This document shows positions 6,195-38,648 of a stretch of DNA of 48,680 nt, piece by piece. Made by a program: the position numbers and the translations under genes. The stretch covers positions 63,647 through 112,326 of the forward strand of contig DUBN01000038.1 of assembly GCA_012960315.1 (NCBI GenBank), given 5' to 3'. Below the pieces are notes generated by a model that saw nothing but the letters and a program-made list of their open reading frames with translations, searched no databases and was not told where the DNA came from. Every line of letters begins with the position of its first letter. The stretch's first letter is position 1. Source of the DNA: Acidimicrobiia bacterium. Its GTDB lineage: Bacteria > Actinomycetota > Acidimicrobiia > Acidimicrobiales > Poriferisodalaceae.

Positions 6195-6224
6195 TAGCTG
6201 GGTTTGATGACGAGGAGGTGAATG

Positions 6225-7139: not shown

Positions 7140-7141
7140 TC

Positions 7142-7543: not shown

Positions 7544-7705
7544 CACGAACTTTTACTGATCCTGCGAATTCGTTTGAATCTAGACCTGCATAATTTGGCG
7601 GACAGCTAAAAATTTTCACTCATTCGCCGACCCACTTTTTGCTTGAGAATAAAAGAGGTTGTTAATCCACCCTGGTTAATGCAGGTTCAACAATTAGGAT
7701 TGGAC

Positions 7706-10262
<2,557 letters not shown>

Positions 10263-10266
<4 letters not shown>

Positions 10267-10709
10267 AGGTAGCGATTCTGATGGGCTCTCCCCGCGATGC
10301 CGAAAAGATGTCGGGTGCTTCGGAAATGCTTGACCGTTTCAATGTGGCCCACGAAGTTCATGTGATGTCCGCGCATCGGGCTCCCGCACAAGTGGCCGAA
10401 TTAGCGACTGATGCTCGAGCAAATGGTTACGGCGTAATAATTTGTGGTGCCGGGATGGCAGCCCACCTTGCTGGTGCCGTTTCGGCGCACACGACGCTGC
10501 CAGTGATCGGTGTTCCATTATCGGGTGGAGTAGGTGGTGGCATGGATGCACTTCTCTCAACTGTGCAAATGCCGCGCGGGATACCAGTAGCGACAGTCGC
10601 AGTAGATGGATCGGCAAACGCAGCGGTTTTAGCTATAGAAATTTTGTCAGTTAGCAACGCTGAACTTGCCGAACGACTCGCAACTTTCAGAGATGAGGGA
10701 GCACGGTGA
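10263..10709 (+). CDS. purE: 5-(carboxyamino)imidazole ribonucleotide mutase PurE
   Basis: A 148-residue PurE. Family motifs are MGSPRD at the N-terminus (commonly MGSxSD), [20 protein letters not shown] and [15 protein letters not shown]. It shifts the carboxyl group of N5-CAIR to give CAIR, or in class II enzymes carboxylates AIR directly. No purK is adjacent, so which substrate is used is open. Upstream in-frame codons lie inside purD; the ATG at 10263 overlaps the purD stop by four bases. The end overlaps purB (GTGA). Confidence 0.93.
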
Positions 10710-12142
10710 CTACCGAAAAAGCTCACGTCCCCAATGTCTTAGCAACCCGTTACGCGTCGCCAGAAATGGCCCAAATTTGGTCGTCTGAAGAAAAAATCGT
10801 TTTGGAGCGCGAATTGTGGATCGCGGTCCTTGAAGGACAACGAGACCTCGGCCTCGATATTGAAGAATCCGTTGTTGAGGCCTATAAATCTGTGATCGGG
10901 GAAGTAGACCTCGAATCCATTGAACGTCGCGAACGCGTAACCCTCCATGACGTGAAAGCCCGGATTGAAGAATTCTGTTCGTTAGCTGGGCACGAGCACA
11001 TCCACAAAGGCCTCACATCGCGTGACCTGACAGAAAATGTTGAGCAATTACAGATCAAGCGGTCCATGGTTTTGATTCAACAACGCCTCGTAGCTGTAAT
11101 TTCTCGGTTAGCGGAGCTAGCAATCGAGTACCAAACCACCATCATCACTGGTCGTTCCCACAACGTGCCGGCCCAAACTACGACCCTAGGTAAACGATTT
11201 GCCAACTTAGGGCAAGAAACCATTCTTGCATTTGAACGGCTCGAAGAACTCTTGCAGCGTTACCCGCTGCGTGGCCTAAAGGGTCCGGTAGGGACACAAC
11301 AAGACCTGCTGGACCTATTTGAGGGGGACTCCTCCAAAGTCAACGAGTTAGAGCAATTAGTTGCCGATCGTCTGGGTTTCGAGCGCACCCTAAATGCAGT
11401 GGGCCAGATATATCCTCGATCGCTCGATCTTGACGTCATCAGCGGTCTCACCCAAGCCGTGAGCCCATTAGGCAACATCGCCCTGCAAATTCGACTCATG
11501 GCTGGGTTGGATCTAGTGACAGAGGGATTCAGCGAAGGACAAGTGGGCTCTTCAGCCATGCCTCACAAAATGAATACTCGATCTGCCGAGCGGGTCAGCG
11601 GTTTCGTCGCGATACTGCGTGGCCACTTGACGATGGCTGCATCAATTGCTGGCGATCAGTGGAACGAGGGAGATGTCAGTTGTTCAGTAGTTCGCCGCGT
11701 CGTTCTCCCAGACGCGTTCCTTGCGCTCGATGGGGCAATAGAAACGATCCTCACTGTGCTTGACGGGTTTGGCGCCTATCCCCGTGTCATTGATCGAGAA
11801 CTAGAGCGATACCTACCCTTTCTCGCCACTACACGCTTACTGATGGCAGCGGTGAAAGCCGGCGCCGGGCGCGAACAAGCTCACGAAGCAATCAAGGAAC
11901 ATGCAGTTGCTGCCGCACTCGAAATCCGAGAAGGCGATTCTGGTCAGAACGACTTATTCGAAAGAATCGTTAATGATCCGGCTTTGCCCTTGGATGCCGC
12001 CGCGATCACCAACGCCGTGAACGATCACAACGCATTCATCGGCCTTGCTAATCTGCAAGTTGCAGACTTTGCTGGCGCAGCAGCGACCATCAATTCGCAA
12101 CATCCTGAGGGAGGGTCCTATCGCCCGTCCCCCATTCTCTAG
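10706..12142 (+). CDS. purB: Adenylosuccinate lyase
   Basis: A 478-residue member of the fumarase/aspartase superfamily. It releases fumarate in two steps: SAICAR to AICAR and adenylosuccinate to AMP. The superfamily signature loop is [17 protein letters not shown], and the conserved [17 protein letters not shown] contains the catalytic His region. THDVK-like sequence ([12 protein letters not shown]) and [10 protein letters not shown] are present near the N-terminus. It starts at GTG 10706, overlapping the purE stop. Confidence 0.95.
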
Positions 12143-12154
12143 TAGAGAAGAGGC

Positions 12155-13033
12155 GTGAACGAGCTTGAGTTACTCCATCGTGGCAAAGTCCGCGAGATGT
12201 ACGTCGTGGATGATCAACATCTCCTGATGGTTGCGAGTGATCGAATCTCAGCGTTTGACGTTGTTTTTAACGAACCGATTCCAGACAAAGGCCGAGTCTT
12301 AACAGCGATGACGGTTTGGTGGTCCGAGCACCTCGCTTCGGTTGCGTCTACCCATCTGGTATCGGCCGACCCAGCCGATTTTCCGACGGCGGCACAACGC
12401 CCCGATTGGGACGGCCGCGCACTCTTAGTCCGAAAGGCAAACATGCTGCCTCTCGAATGCATTGTGCGGGGCTATATAACGGGTTCCGCTTGGAAGGAAT
12501 ATCAACAATCGGGAACTATGCATGGATCTCTTCTGCCGGCAGGCTTACTGGAAGCTCAACAACTCCCTGAGCCAGTTTTTACTCCATCAACGAAAGCCAC
12601 CGAAGGCCACGACATCAACATCAGCTACCAAGAAGCGGTGGACATTGTTGGGTCTGATCTTGCTAGCCAGGCTCGGGATCTTTCCATAGAGGCATACCGA
12701 TCTGCTTCCGAACATGCCGCAAAAAACGGTGTCATCATCGCTGACACTAAGTTCGAACTCGGGCTAATTGACGACAAAATGGTAATCGCTGACGAATTGT
12801 TGACGCCTGATTCGTCGCGATTTTGGCCAGCTGAAAACTGGGCTCCAGGCGCCACACCGGTTTCCTTGGACAAACAACCCGTTCGAGATGCCACCGAAGC
12901 GACCGGGTGGGATAAATCACCCCCGCCACCGCAACTGTCAGCAGAAACGATCCAAACGACCCGCGATCGCTATGTAACTGCATACGAGCGGATTACGGGC
13001 GAGTCTTTTAACACATGGATTGGAGAAAACTAA
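12155..13033 (+). CDS. purC: SAICAR synthetase
   Basis: A 292-residue ligase joining aspartate to CAIR. Motifs are the N-terminal GKVREMY, the CAIR/ATP segment DRISAFDVVF, the family signature PLECIVRGYITGSAWKEY and IIADTKFELGL. It is the longer form seen in actinobacteria and eukaryotes. It starts at GTG 12155 after GAGAAGAGG. The stop overlaps the purS start by one base (TAATG). Confidence 0.95.
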   Translation: MNELELLHRGKVREMYVVDDQHLLMVASDRISAFDVVFNEPIPDKGRVLTAMTVWWSEHLASVASTHLVSADPADFPTAAQRPDWDGRALLVRKANMLPLECIVRGYITGSAWKEYQQSGTMHGSLLPAGLLEAQQLPEPVFTPSTKATEGHDINISYQEAVDIVGSDLASQARDLSIEAYRSASEHAAKNGVIIADTKFELGLIDDKMVIADELLTPDSSRFWPAENWAPGATPVSLDKQPVRDATEATGWDKSPPPPQLSAETIQTTRDRYVTAYERITGESFNTWIGEN

Positions 13034-13284
13034 TGCGCTTCGAAGTGAAGATCGAAGTTTTGCCACGGGAGGGAATTGCCAACCCTGAAGGTTCCACTAT
13101 TGAACGAACGCTTCCTGCTTTAGGTTTCGAAACCGCTGGTGACGTACGAGTAGGGAAAGTTATCCGGCTGCAGGTCGAAGCTGACTCGACCGATACCGCT
13201 AGAGCAATTGTGGAAGACATGTGCGACCGGTTTTTGTGCAACCCAGTTATTGAAGATGCGATTGTGGAAGTACTCACGGCATGA
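13033..13284 (+). CDS. purS: FGAM synthase small subunit PurS
   Basis: An 83-residue PurS, the usual size. The start MRFEVKIEVLPREGIANPEG matches the family, and the GF-(x)-VRVGK pattern is present. PurS bridges PurL and PurQ in the three-part formylglycinamidine ribonucleotide synthase. The ATG at 13033 overlaps the purC stop; a frame six codons longer exists but lies in the purC end. It overlaps purQ as ATGA. Confidence 0.94.
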   Translation: MRFEVKIEVLPREGIANPEGSTIERTLPALGFETAGDVRVGKVIRLQVEADSTDTARAIVEDMCDRFLCNPVIEDAIVEVLTA

Positions 13285-13994
13285 GTCGGCGCGTCGGTGT
13301 CATCCGTTTCCCAGGCACAAACTGCGAATTCGACACCGTTGACGCAATAAATGAACTTGGCGGCGAGGCAAAGGTTGTTTGGCACGGCGATTCGGACCTG
13401 GGAGACGTTGATGCGATCGTCATACCTGGAGGGTTCGCGCATGGCGATTATCTACGTTGCGGAGCAATTGCACGTTTCTCGCCGATTATGGACGCGGTCA
13501 GTACATTCGCGCGAAACGGCGGACCGGTATTAGGGATCTGCAACGGATTTCAGGTCCTAACCGAAGCAGGGTTGCTCCCAGGTGCGTTGCAAAAAAATGC
13601 GGGGCTGAAGTTCCTGTGTCGCATGGAACAAATCCAGTTCGCGTCGACGGCCAACGTTGTTGGTCTTGGGGCATCAGTTGGTGATCTTTTGAACATCCCC
13701 ATCAATCATTTTGAGGGTAACTATGTGTGCGCAAAAGAAACTTTGAAGCAACTTGAGGAAGAAAACAGAATTGTCTTTCGATACACCGACAACCCGAACG
13801 GTTCGATCGGAGACATAGCAGGAATTTCAAACAAACGTGGCAACGTCGTGGGGATGATGCCTCATCCCGAGAGGGCCACTTCGATGCTCCTTGGATCTAA
13901 TGATGGATCCTCTTTACTCCAATCTTTACTTTCCACGGAGCGAGCCCCATCAACTAATGAGAATGTTGCATCCACTCACGACGAGCGAATCTAA
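13281..13994 (+). CDS. purQ: FGAM synthase glutaminase subunit PurQ
   Basis: A 237-residue class I glutamine amidotransferase that supplies ammonia to PurL. The nucleophile lies in VLGICNGFQVLTEAGLLPGAL, and the triad is completed in GMMPHPERAT. The N-terminus RVGVIRFPGTNCEFD is typical. The last roughly 20 residues are polar and not conserved. The stop is followed by a 116-122-base gap before purL, the only substantial break in the cluster. Confidence 0.95.
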   Translation: MSRRVGVIRFPGTNCEFDTVDAINELGGEAKVVWHGDSDLGDVDAIVIPGGFAHGDYLRCGAIARFSPIMDAVSTFARNGGPVLGICNGFQVLTEAGLLPGALQKNAGLKFLCRMEQIQFASTANVVGLGASVGDLLNIPINHFEGNYVCAKETLKQLEEENRIVFRYTDNPNGSIGDIAGISNKRGNVVGMMPHPERATSMLLGSNDGSSLLQSLLSTERAPSTNENVASTHDERI

Positions 13995-24512: not shown

Positions 24513-26141
24513 TCATCGCTCGCCGATAGCGAACAAGCCGCCTTCGCGAGAGCCGATGTAGATACGCCCGTTCCAAACGGTGGGAGTTGCTTCAATGCAC
24601 CCACCGATTTCGATTCGCCAAATTTCTATTGGTTCAATCCGCGGGTCTTGGACCCCAAAGGCCCGTAAATATCCGCCACAATCGCCGACTATCAAGATGT
24701 CGTCAACAACTACCGGGGAACCCCAAAGTGGGCCTTCGAGCTGCTTGGACCACAGCAGTTGACCAGAATCACGATCCACGGACATCAACCGACCACTGTT
24801 GGTTGTGGCATAAAGCACATCTTTATGAAGCGCAGGGGTGCTCCAAATACCGCCCGGAGCCCTTTGATTGTCGTGAAGGGACCAAACCAAAGGAGCCTCG
24901 GGATTACCGGGGTCTAATTTGACTAGCTGCCCAACTTCGCGGGATCGCGCAGTACCGCGTTCATATTCGGCGGCGACGTAGAGGAAGCCATCCTTATCCA
25001 CGACAATTGTCGCGTCGATATCGTCCCCCATCCACCATCGAAAAGTTCGAATCGGGGTTTCTCCCCGGCCTAAGGGCTCCAGGTTCCACCCTTGCACGAG
25101 CCCCCCGGAATTTGCGAACCAAACGGTGTTACCTGAGATTGCCACCGAATTTTCGATCGAAACGTTGTTATCGCCCAGAGCCCGAAGAAGCTCTTCATCC
25201 CAACCTGGGGCCTGGAAAACTATTTCAGGATCCACTGAAACTAAACCTGAATTATCTAACTCTCGATTCAGACGGACAATGTGCAACCAACTGTTTTCGC
25301 CCCCGGTAATCAAATGATCTTTGAGGATTAACGGGGCGCCGTCCCAGTCATCGTTCCACATCATCGGGTTAACATCGTCGCCGGAAAGACTCCACAGTTC
25401 GACGAGTTCTTCAGGCCGGTCAAACGCTAAAATTCTTAGTTTCCCGTCCCGTGAACCGCTGTAGATCAGCGGAAAACCATCGGGATCAACAGTGAGAGAG
25501 CCCTTGACGATGTCACCCGTCGCGAATCTTTTTAGTCTTGGTTGCCCCGTCAATGCATCAAGAATGTGGATACCGCGGTCGTAGGCGCCAACCGCGAGCC
25601 AAGTTTCGGTGTCCACTTCCCACACGGCGGGCTGGCCAGTCCACCCGATCCCGCACCAGGTCGTGGTTCGCCCCTGTGTTGTTGACAGTGAACACAGTTT
25701 GTCTTTCTCAGGAAATCGCCATAAAACCTCCGGCATTAAAGGCACGGGGCCGCGTCCATACCAAGATCTTGTCGGCGACCCTCGAAAGGTCAGAACTCCT
25801 TGCACAGTTCCACCCCAAGGGCGTTGTACATCCTCCGGATTCCACCATCCTTCATAGAGTTGGGTCGTCGTCGTGGACTGCGATACCTGAGGTTGAGTGG
25901 TCGTCGGCAGTGCTGTTGTCGAAGATCGGTATGGCGAACTTGTAGAAGCAGGGGCCGTCTTTTGGAAGATGGAAGACGTAACCGGGCTACTTGAAACGAT
26001 GTTTGTCTTAGTTGACGAAACTGAATCTTCCCCCGTACAAGCGGTTATTAGAAGAACCAGCGCTGCGATTGCCATCAAGCGAGAGGTCGCTGTCGAGTCG
26101 ACATCATCTGAGAGCCAAAATTGGCGGCACGACCTGGTCAT
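24513..26141 (-). CDS. Lipoprotein with PQQ-like beta-propeller
   Basis: A 542-residue exported protein. The N-terminus has a hydrophobic stretch ending in the lipobox LITAC (Cys35), so it is probably a lipid-anchored surface protein. A Ser/Thr-rich linker (35-90) is followed by blades with repeated tryptophan-docking-like motifs such as SGRLMSVDRDSGQLLWSK and GGYLRAFGVQDPR. No quinone ligands can be assigned, so it may be structural or substrate-binding. A shorter start at 26075 would lack the positive charges before the hydrophobic segment. It is divergent from the two-component system. Confidence 0.82.
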   Translation of the reverse strand: MTRSCRQFWLSDDVDSTATSRLMAIAALVLLITACTGEDSVSSTKTNIVSSSPVTSSIFQKTAPASTSSPYRSSTTALPTTTQPQVSQSTTTTQLYEGWWNPEDVQRPWGGTVQGVLTFRGSPTRSWYGRGPVPLMPEVLWRFPEKDKLCSLSTTQGRTTTWCGIGWTGQPAVWEVDTETWLAVGAYDRGIHILDALTGQPRLKRFATGDIVKGSLTVDPDGFPLIYSGSRDGKLRILAFDRPEELVELWSLSGDDVNPMMWNDDWDGAPLILKDHLITGGENSWLHIVRLNRELDNSGLVSVDPEIVFQAPGWDEELLRALGDNNVSIENSVAISGNTVWFANSGGLVQGWNLEPLGRGETPIRTFRWWMGDDIDATIVVDKDGFLYVAAEYERGTARSREVGQLVKLDPGNPEAPLVWSLHDNQRAPGGIWSTPALHKDVLYATTNSGRLMSVDRDSGQLLWSKQLEGPLWGSPVVVDDILIVGDCGGYLRAFGVQDPRIEPIEIWRIEIGGCIEATPTVWNGRIYIGSREGGLFAIGER

Positions 26142-26231: not shown

Positions 26232-26948
26232 ATGGATATATCTCAACAGCCTCTGTCGCAATCAACGGATGCCGTCGTCGCGGTAGTCGATGACGATAAG
26301 AGAATCCGTCGAGCATTAGAGCGGGCTCTCAAATCAGAGGGGTATGACGTCATAACAGCTGCCGACGGAGTTCAAGCATTAGAGATATCTGAGAAAGCCG
26401 ACGTCATGATTCTGGATATGACGATGCCAAATTTGGGCGGGATTGAGGTGTGCCATCGACTGCGCGCAAAAGGTTCAGAACTTCCGGTCCTCTTGCTCAC
26501 CGCCCGACATGGGACCGAGGATCGAGTGGCCGGACTTGATTCAGGTGCTGATGATTATCTTGTTAAACCCTTCGTTCTCGATGAGCTTCTTGCCCGATTA
26601 AGGGCGTTGCTCCGGCGGCGTCATCCAGCGGATACCCCATTTGAATCGACCACACTTTGTTTTGAGAACCTATGTATGGACCAAGTCGGCCGGCAAGTCC
26701 ATAGAGAAGACCAACTCTTAGACCTCACTCGAACGGAATATGAGCTGCTTGAACTTTTGCTCGAACACCCCAACCAAGTGCTGACTCGCGATCAAATTTA
26801 TGAAGCTGTGTGGGGCTACGACTCTGCTCTCGCATCAAACAGTCTTGAGGTCTATGTCGGGTATCTGCGCCGCAAAATCGAGATAGGCGAGGGAACACGT
26901 CTCATTCACACCGTCAGAGGCGTCGGGTACGTCCTCCGGTCGTCGTGA
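26232..26948 (+). CDS. OmpR-family response regulator
   Basis: A 238-residue regulator. The receiver domain has the acidic pair in VVDDDKR (20-21), phospho-acceptor Asp62 in MILDMTMPN, Thr90 in LLTARHG and Lys112 in YLVKPF. The C-terminal winged helix (about 135-238) has LTRTEYELLELLLEHPNQVL and the HTVRGVGYVLR wing. It resembles mycobacterial MprA. It is coupled to the kinase gene by a GTGA overlap and divergent from the lipoprotein gene. Confidence 0.95.
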   Translation: MDISQQPLSQSTDAVVAVVDDDKRIRRALERALKSEGYDVITAADGVQALEISEKADVMILDMTMPNLGGIEVCHRLRAKGSELPVLLLTARHGTEDRVAGLDSGADDYLVKPFVLDELLARLRALLRRRHPADTPFESTTLCFENLCMDQVGRQVHREDQLLDLTRTEYELLELLLEHPNQVLTRDQIYEAVWGYDSALASNSLEVYVGYLRRKIEIGEGTRLIHTVRGVGYVLRSS

Positions 26949-28297
26949 GCTTTCGGACTCGCGTCGCTCTATTGGTCGCTGCTGTTGTTGCCATTGTTGT
27001 CGCAGGTGTGGCGGGATCTTTTCTGTACTTGGCGCGAAGCAAAGCCCTTGAAACCCTTGATGTGAAATTAAGTTCGCGTGCTGCAGTCGTCGCACAACTC
27101 GGGGACAAACTTGGCCTTCGGGGCGACCCTCGGCTGTTCGGATTGTTCGGACGGTATTCACCCGACGATGTTTTGGTTCAAGTATTTGACGCCAACGGCC
27201 GCATTTGGGCGAGCAATGTTGAGCCGTTGCCTATCGATCGGATCGACCTCTCGATAGCGCGCACGAGATCGCAAAGTCCGATGGCGCGAAACGGACGTTT
27301 TGCCACTCTCGATATAGGTGGTCGCCGTATGCGTGTACTGACTATCCCAGTAAGGGCGAACGACAAAGCGGTAATGATCGCTCAGCCAATGGATGAAGTA
27401 GATGCCCAACTCTCTGGTTTGTGGCGCATCAGTTTTCAATTGTTCATCCTCGGCGTGGTGAGTTCCGGCGCTATCGGATTTATTGTCGCTGGACGGGTTG
27501 TACGCCCTATTCGACGGCTAACTGAGGCAGCTTCCAAAATTGCAGTTACCCAAGATGTCGATCAACCCATCCCCGACGACAGAGCTGATGAATTCGGGCA
27601 GCTAGCAAAGAGTTTTAACGAGATGCTGAATGCTTTGAGCCTTTCTAGAGATCAACAGCATCGTCTCGTAGCCGATGCCAGCCACGAACTTCGGACACCT
27701 CTCACAAGTCTTCGTACCAACCTGGAATATATGCAACGTACCGACCTAATAGAGAGCAGCGAACGTCGACAAGTTTTGGATGACGTCCTATTTGAATTGG
27801 ACGAACTAACTGAGCTCGTCACCGAGTTGGTTGAACTTGCCACCGATCGACATCAGATGGGCGAACCCACCGAGATGGAGTTAGATGAAATAGTTGACGC
27901 GATTGTTCAACGGCATAGACGCAGAAGTTCTTGCCCTATCGAGTACCGACTGGATCCATCACGTATTCGAGCCGTGCCAGCGTTGGTCGAACGGGCGGTA
28001 TCAAATCTGATTGACAACGCAATTAAATGGAGCCCGCCCGGTCAAACCATCGAAGTAAAGGTGAACTCAGGTTCGGTAGTTGTTCGCGACTACGGCCAGG
28101 GAATACCCGAACACGAATGGGAACGCGTCTTTGAGCGCTTTTACAGAACTGAAGACGCTCTTTCTTACCCAGGTTCAGGTTTAGGGCTGTCGATAGTTCG
28201 CCATGTCGCGGAAAGTTTTGGGGGGAGCGCGCGAGTGATTGCTCAGAGTGGACCAGGTACGTCTGTAGAGCTTTCTTTCCCGCTGCTAGATGGATAA
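26945..28297 (+). CDS. Sensor histidine kinase
   Basis: A 450-residue membrane kinase. The first membrane helix is at about 7-29, an extracytoplasmic sensor segment at 30-158 and a second helix at about 160-182. HAMP domain follows (RVVRPIRRLTEAASKIA). The phospho-acceptor is His247 in DASHELRTPLTSL; the ATPase domain has NLIDNAIKW (N box), DYGQGIP (G1) and GSGLGLSIV (G2). It would phosphorylate the response regulator encoded just upstream. It starts at GTG 26945. The stimulus is unknown; the domain order resembles MprB. Confidence 0.95.
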   Translation: MSFRTRVALLVAAVVAIVVAGVAGSFLYLARSKALETLDVKLSSRAAVVAQLGDKLGLRGDPRLFGLFGRYSPDDVLVQVFDANGRIWASNVEPLPIDRIDLSIARTRSQSPMARNGRFATLDIGGRRMRVLTIPVRANDKAVMIAQPMDEVDAQLSGLWRISFQLFILGVVSSGAIGFIVAGRVVRPIRRLTEAASKIAVTQDVDQPIPDDRADEFGQLAKSFNEMLNALSLSRDQQHRLVADASHELRTPLTSLRTNLEYMQRTDLIESSERRQVLDDVLFELDELTELVTELVELATDRHQMGEPTEMELDEIVDAIVQRHRRRSSCPIEYRLDPSRIRAVPALVERAVSNLIDNAIKWSPPGQTIEVKVNSGSVVVRDYGQGIPEHEWERVFERFYRTEDALSYPGSGLGLSIVRHVAESFGGSARVIAQSGPGTSVELSFPLLDG

Positions 28298-29290: not shown

Positions 29291-30178
29291 TCAACCCACC
29301 TCGCGGTGAGATGTTCGAGTGGCCAAGGTCAATCGGACTGCTGACATCCACAGAATTGTTGCGCCCGCTACATGAAACCCGACCAGTAAAACTGGTAGTT
29401 GCGTGAAGTATTGCGAGTAACCGATAACCGCTTGAAGGACCATCACAAGGAGAACGACGTTAACCCGGTGTTTCACCAATGTGTTCCCCGAATTCTGAAC
29501 ACGAAAACGCAGCGTCACGGTGAGTACCAAAAGGATGACGACGGCTCCGCCATGAACTCGCGCTATCTCCGAGAAAGGTAAACCCAGCCTCTCTACGCTC
29601 TCATCACCACCGTGTGGGCCGCTCCCAGTCACAAGTGTCCCGGTTACGACGACTAACGCAGTCGCAGCAGCCACGACGCCTATATGTCGATATAGAGATC
29701 GAGCAAGGTACCCGCTGCTGCCCATGGTGCTATTTGGTTGAGCGAGATCCTCAAGAACTACGGCGTTCCAGATCAGCACCATCGACAACAAAAAATGTCC
29801 CATAACAACTGGGGGTGACAAATGAGCGATGACGGTTATCGCGCCCAGGGCAATCTGCGCCGCCACTCCCGCTATGAGCCCCAAAGACCATCTAGTCAGT
29901 TTGGTGACGAGTGGTCTGCGCAGTGTTGACCCTGAAACCGCTAAGACCACAGCGATAGATACGAGACCAGTAATAATTCGGTTTCCGAACTCGACCCACG
30001 CGTGGAAGTCGGCTTCGGGAATTAGTTGGCCGGCTTCGCAGTTAGGCCAATCGCTGCAGCCGAGACCGCTGCCAGTGAGACGTACCGCTGCCCCCGAAAC
30101 CACTATGACTGCAAGGGACCACAGAGCAACACGCGTGATCAAGTGGTATTGCTGAGGAGTCAACCGGGGGAATGTCAC
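29291..30178 (-). CDS. ctaA: Haem A synthase CtaA
   Basis: About 295 residues with eight hydrophobic segments. It oxidises the methyl group of haem O to haem A for cytochrome oxidase. Features are [19 protein letters not shown], with the cysteine pair of the first extracytoplasmic loop, and histidines in [17 protein letters not shown] and LVGFHVAGA. The VEFGNR motif has Asn where many homologues have His. The longest frame adds 106 non-family residues that run into the divergent ctaB; GTG 30178 is chosen instead. It is divergent from ctaB with about 90 bases between. Confidence 0.9.
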
Positions 30179-30269
30179 GCTCTTGAAGCTAGAGGCCTGA
30201 CAACATTCGGAGCGAATCAACAGCCTGTAGTTGGGTAACCGGGCGTCTGGGGCCGTATCGTGGCGCCCG

Positions 30270-31187
30270 ATGGAGCACAGCACGACGACCATCGAAAAGA
30301 CTGATAGAGGTCTGGCCGCAACAGCGGCCGCTTTTGTGATGCTCACAAAGCCCCGAATCATTGAACTGTTGTTGATCACCACAGTCCCCTCAATGATTGT
30401 TGCCAAAGGTGGAATGCCTGATTTGTGGCTCGTGCTCGCGACTGTGGCAGGTGGGACGCTTGCTGCTGGCGGCGCGAACACCTTCAACATGTACATCGAC
30501 CGCGATATCGACCGACTAATGAAACGGACTCAAGGGCGCCCCTTAGTCACGGGAGCGGTCTCCCCTCGCGCCGCCCTCCTATTTGGGTTCGCGCTTGAAA
30601 TCACAGCTTTTGTTTTATTTGTGACTTGGGTGAATTTGTTAGCAGGGCTCTTAGCGGTTGGGGCTTGCCTGTTTTACGTCTTCATATACTCACTCTGGCT
30701 CAAGCGAACTTCAAAGCAAAACATCGTTATTGGCGGTGCAGCTGGCGCCGCGCCAGCCCTCATCGGTTGGGCAGCAGTGACGGGTTCACTTGCGTTAAGT
30801 CCGATTTTGCTGTTCGGAATCATATTTTTTTGGACACCACCACATTTTTGGGCACTAGCAATCAAATACGCAGATGACTACGAAGCAGCAGCCGTACCGA
30901 TGTTGCCAGTGGTCGTCAGCATCCGCAGCACAGCGATACAAATGTTTGGCTACACGATCGTTGCGATCGCTTTCTCGCTCTGGTTTCACGTAGTCGCTGG
31001 TACCAGCTTTCTATATTTAGCGGTGGCGCTGGTCGTCGGTTTGTTGTTCTTGTGGCGTACGTTTGGGCTGCTCCGCCGCCCAAACGCGGTGCAAGCAATG
31101 AAGGTATTCACCTTCTCAATCGTCTACCTGGGGGCGTTGTTTGTTGCTATCGCTATCGACGTGTTGGTCTTTGGGGCCGTTAGGTGA
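30270..31187 (+). CDS. ctaB: Protohaem IX farnesyltransferase (haem O synthase)
   Basis: A 305-residue UbiA-family membrane prenyltransferase that farnesylates protohaem to haem O. Signature motifs are LTKPRIIELLLITT, the Asp-rich NMYIDRDIDRLMKRTQGRPLV-type segment and the second Asp region IKYADDYEAAAVPMLP. WTPPHFWALA is typical of CtaB. ATG 30270 is preferred over an earlier start. Its stop overlaps the start of a small ORF (TGATG), and the cytochrome oxidase genes follow. Confidence 0.95.
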   Translation: MEHSTTTIEKTDRGLAATAAAFVMLTKPRIIELLLITTVPSMIVAKGGMPDLWLVLATVAGGTLAAGGANTFNMYIDRDIDRLMKRTQGRPLVTGAVSPRAALLFGFALEITAFVLFVTWVNLLAGLLAVGACLFYVFIYSLWLKRTSKQNIVIGGAAGAAPALIGWAAVTGSLALSPILLFGIIFFWTPPHFWALAIKYADDYEAAAVPMLPVVVSIRSTAIQMFGYTIVAIAFSLWFHVVAGTSFLYLAVALVVGLLFLWRTFGLLRRPNAVQAMKVFTFSIVYLGALFVAIAIDVLVFGAVR

Positions 31188-31378
31188 TGTTCTCTGACCC
31201 AAAGTTGCACCAAAAAGAGCTTGATAGAACCCTGCTTTGGAGTTACGCGACTGGCAATCTGGTGAGTAAAGTGCCCTCTCAGCACCTGCGCGGCTTCCCC
31301 CGCGCTTTCGGGCAGGGTCGATCTTCGGGTCGAGCCGCCACCCCAGTTATTGAGGCACCGACCAGCAGGACACGATGA
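31187..31378 (+). CDS. Candidate small protein coupled between ctaB and the ctaD paralogue
   Basis: A 63-residue frame begins at ATG 31187 (GTG 31184 also possible), overlapping the ctaB stop as TGATG. It ends at a TGA that overlaps the next gene's ATG (ATGA, 31375-31378). Such precise overlaps at both ends are what a real translationally coupled gene shows here. The product is basic and polar, with no membrane helix: MFSDPKLHQKELDRTLLW at the start, then QHLRGFPRAFGQGRSSGRA. I recognise no family. Without it, 187 bases between ctaB and the next gene would be empty. Confidence 0.4.
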   Translation: MFSDPKLHQKELDRTLLWSYATGNLVSKVPSQHLRGFPRAFGQGRSSGRAATPVIEAPTSRTR

Positions 31379-33051
31379 GCGAAAACAGCACTGCAACAAC
31401 GTCTCGGGGGGTACCTGTCGAAGACCCGACGCCGTTTGGGTGGTTAACCACCACGGACCACAAACGAATTGGACGGTTGTTCATCGTCAGCTCCATGCTG
31501 TTTCTAGTCGTAGGTATCTTCCTTGACTTGTTGGTCAGATTGGATCTGACATCAGCTACGGATTTTGTGAGTCTTGGGAGAGACGGTTTCGCCCAGGGCT
31601 TTACATTTTCTCGCGAAGCTCTAACGCTTCTATTCCTGATCCCGGCCTTCCTCGGCGTCGCCATCTACATGGTGCCTTTGCAGATTGGCGCGCCGAACCT
31701 TGCATTCCCCCGAGCCGCAACAGCGTCGTTCTGGGCATGGAAAGTATCTGCCGTTGTTCTAATTGGTGCGTATATCGGTAATGGTGGCCCCTATGGAGGC
31801 TGGGCAAACGGCGTCGATTTGCATTTGCTTGCATTGAGCGGCCTTGTCATATCGCTCTTACTTGGATCGATCGCCGTCGCTACAACGGTAATGACGATGC
31901 GATCGCCAGGGCTCTACCTCGACACGACCCCACCCTTTGCCTGGTCAGCTTTGGTGTCAGCATCAATGTTGGTTGTGAGCTTGCCAGTGCTACTTGGCCA
32001 AATAGGGATTCTCTATATCGACCACCGATACGGCCGGGTTTTTCTAGCTGGAAACTATGGAATCTGGGAACGGATCGACTGGATTCACCGCACGCCTCAG
32101 TTGTTTATTTACGTAGTCCCCATACTCGGCGTTACCGCTGAAATTGTTCTCGCTACGGCAAAACGCCGCGTCTTTGAACCCCTTGCGATGTATTTCACTC
32201 TTGGGCTCGTTGGTCTCTTTGGGTTCGGTGCTTGGGCCAACTTCTCAGTTACAGGCGAAGGCGCCGACATCATCGACGGCCTTGAAGGCGTTGTGTTGGT
32301 AGGCCTCTACGGGGGCGCCCTCCTCGGCACGGCCGGCCTTCTCGGTCTTCTGGGACTCGCTCTGATCCAAAACCGCAAAATGCCTAAAGTCTCCACCTCG
32401 CTTCTGGCGGCCCTAGGCGCTGGGACACTAATCCTCTTCGGAGCTCTGTACGGCCTGATTGGTGCGGCAACAGACTGGTTAGAAATCGCTGGACGTGGGA
32501 ACGACGGAAATCCTCAACTACGGATGACGACCTGGGTAACGGGACAACAATCCGTTCTGATATACGGTGCCGGACTCCTTGGACTTCTAGCCGCTATTCA
32601 TTGGTGGGCACCCAAAATCTGGGGCAGGCAACTAAACGATCTACTGGGCATACTCAACTTCGTTGTCATAGGCGTGGGAGCGCTACTGGCATTTCTTGGC
32701 CCAGCCTTGTCGGGGCTCTTCACTGAACAACCCGACTTTGTTTACGGAGATCCCAACGCAACTGCTATCTACGCGAGTTGGGTTGATGACACCGGCGCTG
32801 AGACTTTCAGCGCGATTGGTGTAGCAGGCGTAGTCATTCTCTTGGGAGGTGTTGGTCTGCTTTTGCTGAACCTGTTGATTTCAGTTGGTATGAAAAAAGG
32901 CATCGAGGCCGACGAAGATCCATGGGCAGCACAGTCGCCTGAATGGATGCTCCCTTCACCTCCACCAATTGGTGAACCAGATCAGTTGCCAACGCTTGTT
33001 TCGGGGACCCCGTTACTTGACGCCGCTGAAGCTGAGGAGGCGGCAGTTTGA
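31375..33051 (+). CDS. Haem-copper oxidase subunit I paralogue lacking all metal ligands
   Basis: A 558-residue, twelve-helix-like membrane protein homologous to ctaD (35641-37644) along its length: TTDHKRIG, YMVPLQIGAPNLAFPR, PQLFIYVVPILGVTAEI, WWAPKIWGRQLNDLLG and DPWAAQSPEWMLPSPPP. Yet every metal ligand is gone. The haem-a His of MHG is Ser79; GHPEVY reads RTPQLF (Thr240, Gln242, Phe244); the CuB His pair is Asn289-Phe290; AHFHY reads TGQQS (389-393). The K-channel Lys is also missing. It cannot bind haems or CuB in the normal way, but the frame is intact and membrane segments are kept, so it looks maintained. A structural, assembly or ion-conducting role is possible; the function is unknown. 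It sits between ctaB and the true oxidase genes. Confidence 0.88.
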   Translation: MSENSTATTSRGVPVEDPTPFGWLTTTDHKRIGRLFIVSSMLFLVVGIFLDLLVRLDLTSATDFVSLGRDGFAQGFTFSREALTLLFLIPAFLGVAIYMVPLQIGAPNLAFPRAATASFWAWKVSAVVLIGAYIGNGGPYGGWANGVDLHLLALSGLVISLLLGSIAVATTVMTMRSPGLYLDTTPPFAWSALVSASMLVVSLPVLLGQIGILYIDHRYGRVFLAGNYGIWERIDWIHRTPQLFIYVVPILGVTAEIVLATAKRRVFEPLAMYFTLGLVGLFGFGAWANFSVTGEGADIIDGLEGVVLVGLYGGALLGTAGLLGLLGLALIQNRKMPKVSTSLLAALGAGTLILFGALYGLIGAATDWLEIAGRGNDGNPQLRMTTWVTGQQSVLIYGAGLLGLLAAIHWWAPKIWGRQLNDLLGILNFVVIGVGALLAFLGPALSGLFTEQPDFVYGDPNATAIYASWVDDTGAETFSAIGVAGVVILLGGVGLLLLNLLISVGMKKGIEADEDPWAAQSPEWMLPSPPPIGEPDQLPTLVSGTPLLDAAEAEEAAV

Positions 33052-33644
33052 TGACTGACACCACCCCAACTTTGGCTTCAGGCGACCCCCAACGACCCCG
33101 AGCACAACTTGTGGCAACAGGTTTCGCGTGCGCGGCATGCTCCATGATGATGGCAGGAGCACTAGGGCTGTACATGGCTCGACGACACGCCTCTGGGCCG
33201 CACCCCGGCCATGATTGGCTCAATGGGTTAGCGGTACCCAATCCTCAGTTGGTGTACGCGTTACTCACTCTGGTTGCATCCATGGTGACGGCACACTGGG
33301 CCCTGTGGGCTAGCCGACGACGAGACAGCGCTCATGCCTGGACGGCGATCGCCACGACGCTTGTGTTAGGGCTGGGCTTCATCAACATGGTGATGTATAG
33401 CCTCAACCGTATGGGTCTGGAAATCGGAGCTGGGGAATACCAAAATCTTGCCTTCGCTACGACCGGGCTTGCCCTGGCGATTGTTGTTGTAGGACTCTTT
33501 TACCTGGGGCTGATGGGGCTCCGTTCGCTTGGAGGCAGTGTTGGACAGCAGGGGAGTACGGCGTTAGGAGCCGCAGTCTTCTTTTGGGATTTCGCAGTGC
33601 TGGCATGGGCTGTGACCTGGTACACCGTGTACGTGGTGAAGTAG
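33051..33644 (+). CDS. Divergent cytochrome oxidase subunit III-like membrane protein
   Basis: About 197 residues with five hydrophobic segments, like CtaE. The end FFWDFAVLAWAVTWYTVYVV aligns with YWHFVDIVWIVIFAVVYLI of the true subunit III (37637-38281), but the His and Glu residues typical of subunit III are mostly changed. It starts at ATG 33051 overlapping the stop of the subunit I paralogue (TGATG), or at TTG 33048, which is seven bases after GAGGAGG. The same GAGGAGG-TTG arrangement joins ctaD and ctaE, supporting duplication of an I-III gene pair. Function unknown. Confidence 0.7.
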   Translation: MTDTTPTLASGDPQRPRAQLVATGFACAACSMMMAGALGLYMARRHASGPHPGHDWLNGLAVPNPQLVYALLTLVASMVTAHWALWASRRRDSAHAWTAIATTLVLGLGFINMVMYSLNRMGLEIGAGEYQNLAFATTGLALAIVVVGLFYLGLMGLRSLGGSVGQQGSTALGAAVFFWDFAVLAWAVTWYTVYVVK

Positions 33645-33651
33645 GAGAACC

Positions 33652-34440
33652 ATGCTGGGCATAGCAAGTAGATACTTCGCCGGTCGTGTTGCCTTGACCA
33701 CCGCAGCAGCGGTGCTTCTTGGTCTCGTCACAGGCATGGACAACAACGGGCACATGGTCATGTTCGGCACGATTGTTTTGGGAACCGCTGCCGCAGCCTT
33801 TGCGCTTCTAGCAGGTCTCGCGTTGTCGGTTGGAGATGGCGATTCGATCGACCGTGATCGAGCTCACAACCATCCAGCCATCCCGGCATGGTGGCCCATC
33901 ATGGGTTCCCTGGGCTTAGGAATACTGATGGTTGGTCTCGTCACAGACGGATTTATCGCCATCGTGGGTATTTCTGCGATGCTCATCTCCGCTGTTGAGT
34001 GGACCTTTAGCTCATGGGCTGAGCACCTTTCGACAAACCAGGAAGCCAATTCAGTTGAACGCGACCGACTGTTAGCTCCATTTGAGATTCCCCTATACGG
34101 TGCACTCGCGATTGCTGTACCCGTCGTACTCATTTCCCGAATCCTGCTGACATCGAGCAAGAACGGTGCCAGCTTTTTCGCCATCATCGCTTCCGCCCTC
34201 ATCTTGGCTTTTGCCTTTCTTATCTATGCAAAACCTGAGTTACGCCGATCAGTGATCGCCTCATTCCTAGTGGTAGGAGGTCTCGCCCTCATCATCGGTG
34301 GCATCGCGGCAACCGCACGCGGTGAAAGGGACTTCGAGCATCACGGAGAAGAGGAAGATCACAGCGACTCCGACGACACTCACGGCTCGACGGATGAGCA
34401 CTCCGCTCCAGATCTTGACGCGCCGGTGGTGATCCAATGA
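33652..34440 (+). CDS. Uncharacterised membrane protein with acidic His-rich tail
   Basis: A 262-residue protein with about six to seven hydrophobic segments (roughly 12-28, 33-59, 82-118, 145-163, 171-193, 201-223). The segment AWWPIMGSLGLGILMVGLV resembles helices of small actinobacterial oxidase subunits. The tail from about 226 is rich in Asp, Glu and His (FEHHGEEEDHSDSDD) and might bind a metal. It starts behind AGGAG and overlaps ctaC as ATGA, so it belongs to the oxidase operon. I cannot assign it to a named family. Confidence 0.65.
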   Translation: MLGIASRYFAGRVALTTAAAVLLGLVTGMDNNGHMVMFGTIVLGTAAAAFALLAGLALSVGDGDSIDRDRAHNHPAIPAWWPIMGSLGLGILMVGLVTDGFIAIVGISAMLISAVEWTFSSWAEHLSTNQEANSVERDRLLAPFEIPLYGALAIAVPVVLISRILLTSSKNGASFFAIIASALILAFAFLIYAKPELRRSVIASFLVVGGLALIIGGIAATARGERDFEHHGEEEDHSDSDDTHGSTDEHSAPDLDAPVVIQ

Positions 34441-35606
34441 CCGCGACCAATACGAAACTAACTGAGGTAACGACAAACTCAATGACCACCAACCGCCCCA
34501 TTCTGTATCGAGCAGTTCGGCTCGGCGCTCTAGTTGCCCTAATCACAGCACTGACCTCATGTGCGACTGGGCGGATCGACCCAACTGATCCTGTTGGCGA
34601 AAATGCCAAACAAATCGATGCGATTATGCGGCTCTCGGGGTACCTCGCCGCAGCAGTGGGAATCTTCGTGGCGATCGCAGTGATCGTAGTCATCGTCAAA
34701 TTCAGGGCTCGACCTGATGATGACCCCGATGATCTTCCAGAACAAATTCATGGCAACAAAAAGGCTGAACTTACCTGGACGTTAATCCCGGTGGTGCTGC
34801 TGGTTTTTCTCACAGTTATCACCATCCCTGCAGTGTTCGATCTGAGCGCGAAAAGCGACGGGCGAACCATCAAAGTTGAAGGTCAGCAGTGGTGGTGGCA
34901 GTTCAGCTATGACATCGACGAAGACGGCACTCCCGACATCGTGACAGCGAACGACCTCGTGATCCCGATCGGCGAAGAAATCAACCTCGAAATTCTTTCA
35001 AACGACGTCATTCACTCTTTTTGGATTCCACAGTTGAACGGCAAAAAAGATGCTGTCCCCGGACGCGTTCATCATTGGCGGATTAGTTCCCCGGTGCCGG
35101 GAATCTTCTATGGAGAGTGCGTCGAGTTCTGTGGACTGAGCCATGCGAACATGCAGATGCGAACCGTAGCTCTAGAGCAAGATGACTACGATGCGTGGGT
35201 TGAGGACCAAATGAAAGCTTCGAGCGTCCCGACTGCCGCATCCGCGAAACGCGGATACGACCTTTTTGGTCGACATTGCATCAGCTGCCACGTCGTTAAC
35301 GGCGTGTATGAATCTGCGGCAAATGGCAACGCCAATCTCACCTCTGGATATGCGCCTAACCTGACACATCTAATGACCCGAACATCGTTTGCCGGTTCAG
35401 TCTTTGAGCTCTACAACGACGATGGTTCCCTAAACATTGCAGAGTTGCGTGAGTGGGTTCGGAATGCGCCCGCCCGGAAGCCTTCCCGCCCTGATAACCG
35501 TCAGGGCATGGTCTCATTTGCGGAGATTCTTAATGAGGCCGATCTTGATGACATCGTTACATACCTCAGTACGCTCGGTGGCCCCCCGCCACTGATGCCA
35601 AGTTGA
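34437..35606 (+). CDS. ctaC: Cytochrome c oxidase subunit II with fused cytochrome c (caa3 type)
   Basis: A 389-residue lipoprotein. The lipobox LTSC places the lipidated Cys at 42. Two membrane helices (about 66-88 and 113-135) are followed by the CuA domain: WWWQFSYD, His193 (VIHSFWIPQ) and GECVEFCGLSHANMQM with Cys228, Cys232, His236 and Met239. A cytochrome c domain follows, with CISCH at 281-285 and Met358 (RQGMVSF) as probable axial ligand. It takes electrons into CuA and on to CtaD. All ligands are present, in contrast to the upstream paralogues. Confidence 0.96.
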   Translation: MTATNTKLTEVTTNSMTTNRPILYRAVRLGALVALITALTSCATGRIDPTDPVGENAKQIDAIMRLSGYLAAAVGIFVAIAVIVVIVKFRARPDDDPDDLPEQIHGNKKAELTWTLIPVVLLVFLTVITIPAVFDLSAKSDGRTIKVEGQQWWWQFSYDIDEDGTPDIVTANDLVIPIGEEINLEILSNDVIHSFWIPQLNGKKDAVPGRVHHWRISSPVPGIFYGECVEFCGLSHANMQMRTVALEQDDYDAWVEDQMKASSVPTAASAKRGYDLFGRHCISCHVVNGVYESAANGNANLTSGYAPNLTHLMTRTSFAGSVFELYNDDGSLNIAELREWVRNAPARKPSRPDNRQGMVSFAEILNEADLDDIVTYLSTLGGPPPLMPS

Positions 35607-35640: not shown

Positions 35641-37644
35641 ATGGCCATGACCGAGGAACGACCCGAAGTCCTCGAACTTGAATCAGGCGAGACAACCCCC
35701 ACCACGGGCGTCTTCGCGCGTCCGACCAATGCCAGCGGTTGGCGTTCATGGTTCTTTACCGTTGATCACAAAAAAATTGGAATCATGTACGGCGCCGTCG
35801 CAATGTTTTGGTTTTTTTGGGGAGGAATCGAAGCACTTCTGATTAGGTTGCAGCTGTTTACCCCAAACGGCGACGTGTTGACCGCGGAACAGTACAACCA
35901 AATTTTCACGATGCATGGCACAACTATGGTGTTCCTCGTGATCATGCCGCTTGCAGCGGCGTTCGCTAACTACATGGTGCCCCTGCAAATCGGAGCCCGA
36001 GACGTTGCTTTCCCACGCATGAATGCTTTGGGCCTCTGGCTTTTTGTCTTCGGCGGAATTTTTCTAAATCTCAGCTGGTTCTTAGGTGGTGGTCCGGACG
36101 GTGGCTGGTTTGCCTACGCGCCTAATACTGGTGTTACTTATTCGCCCGGCACCGGCATGGATTTCTATACATTCGGGCTCCAAATAGCGGGCATCGCCTC
36201 CCTGGTAGGTTCGATCAATCTCATTGTGACGATCATCAATATGAGAGCGCCCGGAATGAGCATGCTCCGGATGCCCGTCTTCACATGGATGATTTTGGTA
36301 GTCCAGTTCTTGCTGCTCTTTGCCTTGCCGGTCATCACTGTTGCGCTGGTGCTCCTCAGCTTTGACCGGACCTTTGACGCCAACTTTTTCAACGTTGCCA
36401 TGGGCGCAGATCCGTTGCTTTGGCAGCATCTCTTTTGGATCTTTGGCCATCCAGAGGTCTACATCCTCATTCTCCCGTCATTTGGCATTGTCTCCGAAAC
36501 GTTGCCCGTGTTCTCACGGAAACCTCTTTTCGGTTATTCAGTCATCGTAATTTCAGGCGCGGCCATCGGGTTTATGGGCTGGGGTGTCTGGGCTCACCAC
36601 ATGTTCGTTTCTGGCCTCGGACCGGTCGGAGTAGCGGCTTTCTCCGCGACAACGATGTTCATCGCCGTACCGACTGGCGTCAAGATCTTGAACTGGATAG
36701 CAACAATGTGGGGCGGCAACATCCGATTCACATTGCCAATGATGTTCTCCGTATCGCTGGTTGCAATGTTCACAATCGGCGGGTTGTCGGGCGTGATGCA
36801 CGCGGTCGCACCCGCCGACACTCAACAAACCGACACCTACTTCATTGTCGCCCACTTCCACTACGTACTCTTCGGTGGCGCACTAATGGGGTTGTTTGCC
36901 GGGATGTATTACTGGTGGCCAAAAGCATTCGGCTACAAACTCAACGACGCGCTCGGCAAATGGCATTTCTGGTTCGTGCTCATTGGGTTCAACATGACGT
37001 TCGGCCCCATGCACATACTTGGGTTGCAAGGCATGGCGCGTCGACATAGCCGTTACGGACCTGAAGACGGTTTCGACTTTTGGAACGCCGTGGTAAGCAT
37101 CGGCGCTTTCGTGATCCTGATTGGCATGATTATCTTCGCGATTAACATTGTTCGGACATGGCTTGGCTATAAAGCGGGAACAGTTCCACAGGAGGGAGCC
37201 GATCCGTGGGACGGGAGGACCCTTGAATGGGCAATACCTTCACCCGCCCCTGAACACAACTTCGATTACGTCCCAGTGGTCACTGACCTTGACGATTTCT
37301 GGCACAAGAAATACCAGACAGATGGAACAGGCAAGCTCCGCAAAGTCGCAAATGGAAACGACATTGCTCAAAAGGGAGATCAACATCCCCACTTGCCTTC
37401 AGCGTCGTATTGGCCCATAGTCCTCGCCGCTGGGCTTCCTCTGATTGCGTTGGGGTTGATCTATAACCTCTGGCTTTCCGGGATTGGATTGTTGCTAATG
37501 CTTGGCTCTATGTTCGGATGGAGTCTGGAACCAGCTACTGATCCTGACGCCGGTCACGATGGACATGGAGATCATCAGGACCCGGATATAACTGATTCCG
37601 ATGGCAGCGACAACAACACAGCCGAGGAGGCCCCCGTTGGCTGA
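35641..37644 (+). CDS. ctaD: Cytochrome c oxidase subunit I
   Basis: A 667-residue catalytic subunit reducing O2 to water and pumping protons. All ligands are present: haem-a His92 (FTMHGTT) and His407; CuB His270 (GHPEVY, with the crosslinked Tyr274), His319 and His320; haem-a3 His405 (AHFHY). K-channel Lys348 (PTGVKI) and Glu272 place it in the A1 class. Two extra C-terminal helices (about 582-620) and an Asp/His-rich tail extend it beyond the usual 550 residues. It starts at ATG 35641 after CAGGAG. Its end overlaps ctaE. Confidence 0.97.
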   Translation: MAMTEERPEVLELESGETTPTTGVFARPTNASGWRSWFFTVDHKKIGIMYGAVAMFWFFWGGIEALLIRLQLFTPNGDVLTAEQYNQIFTMHGTTMVFLVIMPLAAAFANYMVPLQIGARDVAFPRMNALGLWLFVFGGIFLNLSWFLGGGPDGGWFAYAPNTGVTYSPGTGMDFYTFGLQIAGIASLVGSINLIVTIINMRAPGMSMLRMPVFTWMILVVQFLLLFALPVITVALVLLSFDRTFDANFFNVAMGADPLLWQHLFWIFGHPEVYILILPSFGIVSETLPVFSRKPLFGYSVIVISGAAIGFMGWGVWAHHMFVSGLGPVGVAAFSATTMFIAVPTGVKILNWIATMWGGNIRFTLPMMFSVSLVAMFTIGGLSGVMHAVAPADTQQTDTYFIVAHFHYVLFGGALMGLFAGMYYWWPKAFGYKLNDALGKWHFWFVLIGFNMTFGPMHILGLQGMARRHSRYGPEDGFDFWNAVVSIGAFVILIGMIIFAINIVRTWLGYKAGTVPQEGADPWDGRTLEWAIPSPAPEHNFDYVPVVTDLDDFWHKKYQTDGTGKLRKVANGNDIAQKGDQHPHLPSASYWPIVLAAGLPLIALGLIYNLWLSGIGLLLMLGSMFGWSLEPATDPDAGHDGHGDHQDPDITDSDGSDNNTAEEAPVG

Positions 37645-38281
37645 TACTGCTGAGGCCGAGACCTCTGAACTGGCGTACGGCCCAACTGATTGGGACGACC
37701 ACCATCACCTGCCGACGAATACTGGGCTGACCAACGAAAAGGTCACAATGTGGGCCTTCTTGGGTTCAGATTGCCTCCTTTTTGGCGCCCTCATCTCGAC
37801 CTATTTGCTGTGCCGAAATCGAGTCGGCCCCGCAACCAAAGGCCCGACAGCGGCGGATCTCTTTGACATTCCGTTTACCTCGGTGAGCTCGTTTGTTCTT
37901 CTGATGAGTTCGCTAACCATGGTGCTGGCGGTGACCTCCATACAAAGAGCCGAGATGGAGCGATGCAAACTGTGGTTGCTAACCACCGCCGCGTTGGGCT
38001 CAATTTTTATTGCCGGCCAGGTCTACGAATTCACAGGTTTCTATCGAGAAGGCCTTGGTTTCACGACCAACATCTCCTCGTCTGCTTTCTTCACCCTCAC
38101 CGGCTTTCATGGGGTGCACGTTTCTCTGGGCATAGTCATGCTCGTGACTATGTGGGTACTTGTCACGCGGGGAAACTTAGGTCCCGAACGCGCTGAAACT
38201 ATTGAAATAATCGGCCTTTATTGGCACTTTGTTGACATCGTGTGGATTGTTATCTTCGCGGTCGTCTATTTGATTCCATAG
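37637..38281 (+). CDS. ctaE: Cytochrome c oxidase subunit III
   Basis: About 214 residues with five membrane helices. Features are KVTMWAFLGSDCLLFGALI, VYEFTGFYREGLGFTTNI, the GFHGVHVSLGI motif and the C-terminal GLYWHFVDIVWIVIF, all classical for subunit III. TTG 37637 is chosen as start because it lies six bases after GAGGAGG and overlaps the ctaD stop by eight bases; the longer frame from 37601 has no such support. Confidence 0.94.
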   Translation: MADTAEAETSELAYGPTDWDDHHHLPTNTGLTNEKVTMWAFLGSDCLLFGALISTYLLCRNRVGPATKGPTAADLFDIPFTSVSSFVLLMSSLTMVLAVTSIQRAEMERCKLWLLTTAALGSIFIAGQVYEFTGFYREGLGFTTNISSSAFFTLTGFHGVHVSLGIVMLVTMWVLVTRGNLGPERAETIEIIGLYWHFVDIVWIVIFAVVYLIP

Positions 38282-38294
38282 GAGCATTGGTCAT

Positions 38295-38648
38295 ATGAAC
38301 ACCGCCACCGTCTCCGAAGACGAGGGACACCAAGAACATTCTGAACATGGGTTGAGCGACTTTGGGTATATCAAGATCGCTGTCATTCTTGCCACCCTCA
38401 CAGCTGCCGAAGTGGCGACCTATTTTTTTGATTTTGGAGTCGTGGAAATCCCGTCGCTGCTCATACTTATGGTCGTCAAGTTTCAAATCGTTGTCTCGTA
38501 CTTCATGCATCTGAAGTTTGACAGCAAGGTATTCAGCTATCTGTTCGTGACGGGGCTGATACTCGCAATGATGGTGTTCGCCGCGATGGGGACTTCGATG
38601 GCGTTCTGGCAGAATCCCTCTGGATGCGACGCAAGCGCGTTCTGTTGA
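38295..38648 (+). CDS. ctaF: Cytochrome c oxidase subunit IV
   Basis: A 117-residue protein with three membrane helices after a polar, His-rich N-terminus. YIKIAVILATLTAAEVATYF and VVKFQIVVSYFMHLKFDSK are the prokaryotic COX4/CyoD-like pattern, with the conserved FMHLKFD between helices. It stabilises the oxidase complex. It follows ctaE by 13 bases and ends the operon. Confidence 0.9.
   Translation: MNTATVSEDEGHQEHSEHGLSDFGYIKIAVILATLTAAEVATYFFDFGVVEIPSLLILMVVKFQIVVSYFMHLKFDSKVFSYLFVTGLILAMMVFAAMGTSMAFWQNPSGCDASAFC

Follow-up and report, generated by a model that had tools for sequence, protein, structure and literature searches.

Subunit I of the A-type cytochrome oxidases (CtaD/COX1) carries the ligands of haem a, haem a3 and CuB, the cross-linked Tyr and the K-channel Lys. 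The CydB subunit of cytochrome bd belongs to a protein family unrelated to oxidase subunit I. According to the passage cited here, CydB shares the fold of CydA, contains no metal cofactor and is arranged pseudo-symmetrically to CydA (PMC8951039). A third reference is the actinobacterial aa3 oxidase of the bcc:aa3 supercomplex, with its subunit III (CtaE) and subunit IV (CtaF). A search confined to the openly licensed literature, with subscription papers outside its scope, found no description of a ligand-free COX1 homologue in an oxidase operon.

The window, a stretch of 48,680 nucleotides from an Acidimicrobiia bacterium (GCA_012960315.1, contig DUBN01000038.1, positions 63,647 to 112,326), contains an oxidase operon with such a gene. 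This second subunit I homologue, which we call D' (31375–33051, + strand), is followed in the same direction by E' (33051–33644, +), a homologue of subunit III (COX3), and by orf3 (33652–34440, +), which combines a putatively subunit-IV-like N-terminal half with further TM helices and lacks the cupredoxin domain of its early-branching relatives. The three genes form a block between ctaB and ctaC. The ATG of E' at 33051 overlaps the TGA stop codon of D' (33049–33051), and the ATG of ctaC overlaps the stop codon of orf3. Upstream of the block, ctaB (30231–31187, +; start uncertain) encodes haem o synthase, with NF003349 and TIGR01473 above cut-off, and ctaA (29291–30496, −; start uncertain) encodes haem a synthase (COX15-CtaA, 70.9 bits). 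Downstream, ctaC (34437–35606, +) encodes a caa3-type subunit II that includes a cytochrome c domain (COX2, COX2_TM and Cytochrom_C), and ctaD (35641–37644, +) encodes the true subunit I, in which every ligand is present and a subunit-IV-like domain is fused at the C-terminus (COX1, 520.9 bits; Cyt_c_ox_IV, 31.8 bits). The true subunit III gene, ctaE (37601–38281, +; COX3, 63.6 bits), has an uncertain start and overlaps ctaD, and ctaF (38295–38648, +; COX4_pro) encodes a small subunit IV. The subunit-IV-like C-terminus is fused to ctaD although this separate COX4_pro gene is present. D' and ctaD are the two COX1 genes of the source genome. A promoter and terminator scan found fewer promoter-like sites than in shuffled sequences.

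The D' frame comprises 558 amino acids, starts with ATG and contains no internal stops. Pfam COX1 (PF00115) scores 156.2 bits on D' against a cut-off of 34.8, and the protein aligns with CtaD of the same operon over nearly its full length (26% identity, 566 columns, E 2e-49). The NCBIfam equivalog model of CtaD, TIGR02891, reaches 205.7 bits on D', below its cut-off of 670.75. An AlphaFold model built from 65 sequences (mean pLDDT 86.3, pTM 0.90) matches oxidase subunit I chains with TM scores of 0.69–0.81 by query length among the 50 matches listed; Z reaches 39.1, and the top-ranked chain aligns over 501 residues. From the COX1 fold, D' presumably has 12 TM helices. Its most conserved residues are mostly structural and common to CtaD (among them P101, Q103, G137, G138, R176, P241, W411, E523 and W524). 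Pfam, the CtaD alignment and the fold thus agree with the initial annotation, which had described a full-length oxidase subunit I homologue inside an oxidase operon. By its defining features, D' is no functional haem-copper oxidase subunit I and is a homologue that keeps the COX1 fold.

D' shares the fold, the length, many structural motifs and the operon context of CtaD, but the D' of the window lacks every one of the cofactor ligands. The haem a, haem a3, CuB and K-channel roles of its positions are those we assume from A-type oxidases. None of the six ligand sites is occupied by His in the alignment: the haem a sites are Ser79 and Ser393, the a3 site is Gln391, and the CuB sites are Thr240, Asn289 and Phe290. 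The cross-linked Tyr is replaced by Phe244, the HPEVY Glu by Gln242, and the K-channel Lys by Leu, the last at a place where the alignment is less certain. The HxH motif of CtaD aligns with Q391-Q392-S393, and this register is supported because a relative carries GHLH at the same place (L021/L046). The initial annotation had reported that all six metal-ligand His, the cross-linked Tyr and the K-channel Lys are gone, which the alignment bears out; its choice of Gly390 and Gln392 as the HxH equivalents is one position off, the a3 and haem a places being Gln391 and Ser393. Ligand His at shifted places, which it had named as a possible objection, do not occur in these motifs. The loss extends to the relatives of the window's family, with none of the six ligand His in 20/20 rows.

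The loss of all catalytic residues might indicate a decaying pseudogene. This reading is ruled out by the median dN/dS of D' in the window's family, which is 0.058 over 10 pairs, far from 1, and by the homologues that persist through much of the order; in the 37 further family genomes with D', the matches contain no internal stop, one of them being split into two contig pieces. The initial annotation had argued against decay from the uninterrupted frame, and these data agree. The corresponding medians (Nei-Gojobori) are 0.065 for ctaD (10 pairs), 0.062 for E' (11), 0.075 for orf3 (10), 0.046 for ctaE (11), 0.090 for ctaC (10), 0.124 for ctaF (11) and 0.212 for ctaB (9), with stop-to-stop frames used for the relatives and only pairs with dS between 0.02 and 1.5 counted. 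Order-wide, the divergence of D' is much faster than that of ctaD, with a median pairwise identity of 0.32 versus 0.64 (1225 pairs, 50 genomes), which suggests that any interface D' may have is under no tight constraint. The identities of the two proteins correlate with r 0.93 in these 50 genomes; this value reflects common descent and is no sign of contact, because any vertically inherited pair would correlate.

D' was found in 38/39 genomes of the window's family, its own genome counted, once as two contig pieces. At E ≤1e-15, the orf3 marker occurs in 199/298 genomes of the order Acidimicrobiales. Homologues in related genomes, for which the initial annotation had proposed to look, are widespread in the order. 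Among the genomes with at least 90% completeness and at most 5% contamination, the marker is present in 152/226 and absent in 74/226. Some families, e.g. f3 and f5, show no match in their listed genomes, where a divergent orf3 may escape; the 99/298 genomes without the marker are an upper bound on absence for the same reason. Within this bound, the block appears dispensable in evolution. Among plasmid records, 760 matches were obtained, all below 60% identity and none covering 80% of the query.

This distribution bears on the view that D'-E'-orf3 acts as a transient chaperone for assembling CtaD, CtaE and their cofactors and is absent from the final enzyme. The position of the block between ctaB and ctaC and beside ctaA would suit such a platform, as would the subunit I motifs and C-terminal tail kept by D' and the haem-a site kept in its early relatives. 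We nevertheless consider it unlikely, given that the genomes lacking the orf3 marker presumably build their oxidase in the absence of the block. In the form given by the initial annotation, a platform for haem A, the idea is weakened because the window's family has none of the six His.

A search with the motif [VLI]AFPRAA[AT]A yielded 106 loci, of which the best 80, the named loci, were used; the conservation of this stretch in all of them is a consequence of that selection. Among the recognised genes of these best 80 of 106, the order D'-E'-orf3-ctaC-ctaD is found in 62, and 48 of those 62 have the complete set of eight genes, ctaB through ctaF. In sixteen of the remaining 18 loci, a contig end shortens the run and the order is unchanged; one of these (L240) has ctaB and D' in one frame. 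A further locus (L193) has orf3 and ctaD each split into two pieces. The order is broken in one MAG (L187), where orf3 is broken and neither ctaC nor ctaD is recognised in 8 kb downstream; natural loss or misassembly may be responsible. D' and E' are open in this locus (5422–13428) and are followed, as judged by eye, by an ABC transporter ATPase and a CcdA-like protein on the other strand. Named carriers of D' include MedAcidi-G3 (a marine actinobacterium), MED-G01, several Candidatus Microthrix-labelled MAGs, the cultured strain Aquihabitans sp. G128 (L225) and the isolate Salinilacustristhrix flava EGI L10123. In EGI L10123, which is cultured, D' keeps the haem-a His pair (L048/L200). The cited passage on this isolate describes its oxidase genes as highly expressed and does not state which COX1 gene is concerned (PMC11697166). 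The same paper names a published transcriptome of the strain, SRR25905596.

Fast divergence and the loss of the redox residues would also fit a new membrane function of D' apart from the oxidase, such as an ion, gas or lipid pathway or a sensor, which stays in the operon by history. Such a role is improbable, since D' keeps its place between ctaB and ctaC in all long-enough loci with one exception and is accompanied by III-like and IV-like partners. The K-channel Lys is absent in 85/85 D' and no more than 14/85 retain the Glu, as counted in one alignment with divergent rows. These counts make proton or ion conduction through the known oxidase channels less likely, and the ion pathway suggested in the initial annotation loses ground to that extent.

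The partners of D' resemble subunits III and IV to different degrees. Pfam COX3 scores 31.1 bits on E' against a cut-off of 23.8, and 24/25 E' members match COX3 at E ≤0.01; NF050119 reaches 42.1 bits with a cut-off of 190. Against the PDB, the E' profile matches subunit III (E 4.4e-26) in chains of 8hcr and 6adq, that is, CtaE of the actinobacterial aa3 oxidase. The N-terminal half of orf3 is best matched by subunit IV (CtaF) of mycobacterial aa3, which is the first PDB match both by fold and by profile, each weak: 8hcr_H in Foldseek, with an orf3 model of pTM 0.49 (E 0.042, prob 0.99), and 9wcx_m for the profile (E 0.058). PF12270 gives 10 bits on the orf3 of the window, with a cut-off of 26.9, and matches orf3 members weakly (2/23 at E ≤0.5, best 0.0008). 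Positions ~80–137 of the orf3 profile match the subunit-IV-like C-terminal extension of ctaD, and positions ~145–262 match a TM and cupredoxin gene close after ctaF in other families of the phylum. Compared with CtaF, orf3 contains additional TM helices and, in the early branches, a cupredoxin. The orf3 of the window has no Pfam cupredoxin match, and no such tail is seen in its family. Because E' is III-like and orf3 is IV-like, the block may be read as a I'-III'-IV' set without its own subunit II.

The genes after ctaF in other Actinomycetota resemble the second half of orf3 but are separate genes. Six loci (L112, L113, L114, L115, L117 and L118) have a separate TM and blue-copper membrane protein close after ctaCDEF, with Pfam cupredoxin confirmed in L112, L113 and L118. 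Only one COX1 gene was recognised per locus in this set (L112-L118). The TM and cupredoxin protein is possibly an electron donor or a copper chaperone of those oxidases.

Trees were built without the ligand columns from 89 rows (45 D') and from 81 rows (75 D'); the 81-row tree leaves out ten near-identical rows of the window's family, which the ligand count over 85 rows includes. In both trees, D' forms one side of a branch with an SH-aLRT of 100. The origin of D' as a duplicate of its own ctaD is not favoured, as it groups with the shorter CtaD of other oxidases (L084, L093), and not with the long CtaD, at an SH-aLRT of 96 in the 89-row tree, while the 81-row tree gives no decision and D' branches are long.

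Ligand loss is graded across this clade. CuB His residues number zero in 80/85 D', one in 5/85 and more than one in 0/85. The a3 His is kept in 12/85 and both haem-a His are kept in 28/85, which makes haem binding likely in part of the D' family; none of the six His remains in 45/85. In the 81-row tree, the two first-branching clades are family f21 (10 rows) and a 19-row clade that comprises f8, f11 and others. Both haem-a His are present in 24/29 rows of these two clades versus 4/56 elsewhere, and a blue-copper cupredoxin in orf3 in 24/29 (2 unreadable) versus 1/56. In f21, f8 and f11, both haem-a His are found in 18/18 genomes, with 54/504 gap-free columns invariant; 15 of the 18 form the unbiased part, because each family was chosen for one His-keeping member. 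This is good, though not final, evidence that the D' proteins of these families still bind a haem. The a3 His is kept in 6/8 of the f8/f11 group. Copper sites were called by the pattern C..H..M with an upstream His, which the orf3 cupredoxin shows in 17/18 genomes of f21, f8 and f11, the 18th being cut by a contig end. Pfam Cupredoxin_1 matches both orf3 proteins of D' blocks that were tested (E 1.6e-11 and 1.1e-9). The C-terminal domain of orf3 in the f2 rows aligns with the cupredoxin but lacks the copper ligands, and the one member tested has no Pfam match; no such domain is seen in the rows that are neither f2 nor copper-bearing. On this scale, the D' of the window appears to be a fully stripped late stage.

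Some D' proteins retain more of the active site. In L091 (2971–4599), L095 (6480–8102) and their relatives, three haem ligands, the Glu and the Tyr are kept, and the first CuB His is replaced by Arg (RPEVY/RPEIY). These proteins are possibly relics of a di-haem oxidase without copper.

The two remaining redox features were lost in the same direction without being strictly coupled. Among the 75 D' rows of the tree, 23 have both the haem-a pair and the copper site, 41 have neither, 4 have the His pair only, 2 have copper only and 5 have no usable orf3. Strict coupling is not supported, given the six rows with a single feature. By parsimony, the tree needs no fewer than 6 changes in the haem-a pair and 3 in copper. 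A test with phylogenetically independent pairs gives no significant result (median p 1 over 5 pairs; too few events).

A redox role may be considered for the early-branching families, in which the copper of orf3 would pass electrons to haem a of D' as a relay, a reservoir or a redox sensor, the window's family being left with a scaffold remnant. The recurrence of the haem-a pair and of the copper pattern in the same families, with two of the cupredoxins confirmed by Pfam, points to such a system. We regard it as rather unlikely, as the window has neither the haem-a nor the copper site, the families were chosen for members that keep the His, the pair is lost in 5/29 rows of the two clades, and the losses of the two features are separable. 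It is far less probable that D' binds haem or metal by residues other than the classical His. The D' proteins with the haem-a pair and the Gln at the second CuB His place in 44/65 rows might be cited for it, but the haem-a places in the window's family are Ser, Thr or Ser, and H29, which is also present in CtaD, is the only His or Cys among the 60 most conserved positions.

The reading that we prefer, with a probability of about one in two, is that D' is a conserved pseudo-subunit I and that D'-E'-orf3 forms a structural protomer beside CtaC-D-E-F of the caa3 oxidase, in the manner of CydB. An oxidase-like copy of subunits I, III and IV would have arisen, probably once, with the CuB site already broken before the lineage diversified. 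The module would then have kept haem a and a cupredoxin-bearing orf3 in the early lineages, and in the window's lineage it would have lost all redox sites while its chains remained under strong selection. This order of losses on the oldest branch is inferred, as are the scaffold role and a physical complex with CtaCDEF. The product would copy the oxidase membrane core without its metals and without a subunit II of its own, and may assemble beside CtaCDEF into an asymmetric oxidase or supercomplex. The likeness to CydB concerns the way of working: D' is a cofactor-free homologue of a catalytic subunit, is encoded beside ctaD and is under purifying selection. Unlike CydB, D' comes with its own III-like and IV-like subunits, has living intermediates of cofactor loss and would belong to a predicted complex. 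The structural partner proposed in the initial annotation is still the best of its three ideas, on the understanding that its assembly with the oxidase is deduced; that account was right about the ligand loss and omitted the companions E' and orf3, the stepwise loss and the homologues that still keep haem ligands.

A broader statement is offered tentatively. The respiratory oxidase of Acidimicrobiales may be asymmetric, one of its protomers being the demetallated fossil of a second oxidase, with living stages in which CuB is gone, a3 is partly kept and haem a and the cupredoxin are kept, followed by those in which all are gone. The stages in between would be 'half-oxidases' for electron transfer, with haem a and no oxygen site. 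A cofactor-free subunit I that keeps its fold, its operon and its selection is unexpected, and the living intermediates make the conversion of a redox enzyme into a structural subunit testable while its stages are still visible. Annotation will probably take D' and E' for working subunits I and III of cytochrome c oxidase, which would inflate the oxidase counts in this group.

The source genome has a match to PF13631 (cytochrome b family) of 138.8 bits, with one stop inside the stretch. A PQQ-type beta-propeller protein is encoded at 24513–26141 (−). A response regulator and histidine kinase pair at 26232–28297, 1–2 kb upstream of ctaA and ctaB, is a possible regulator.
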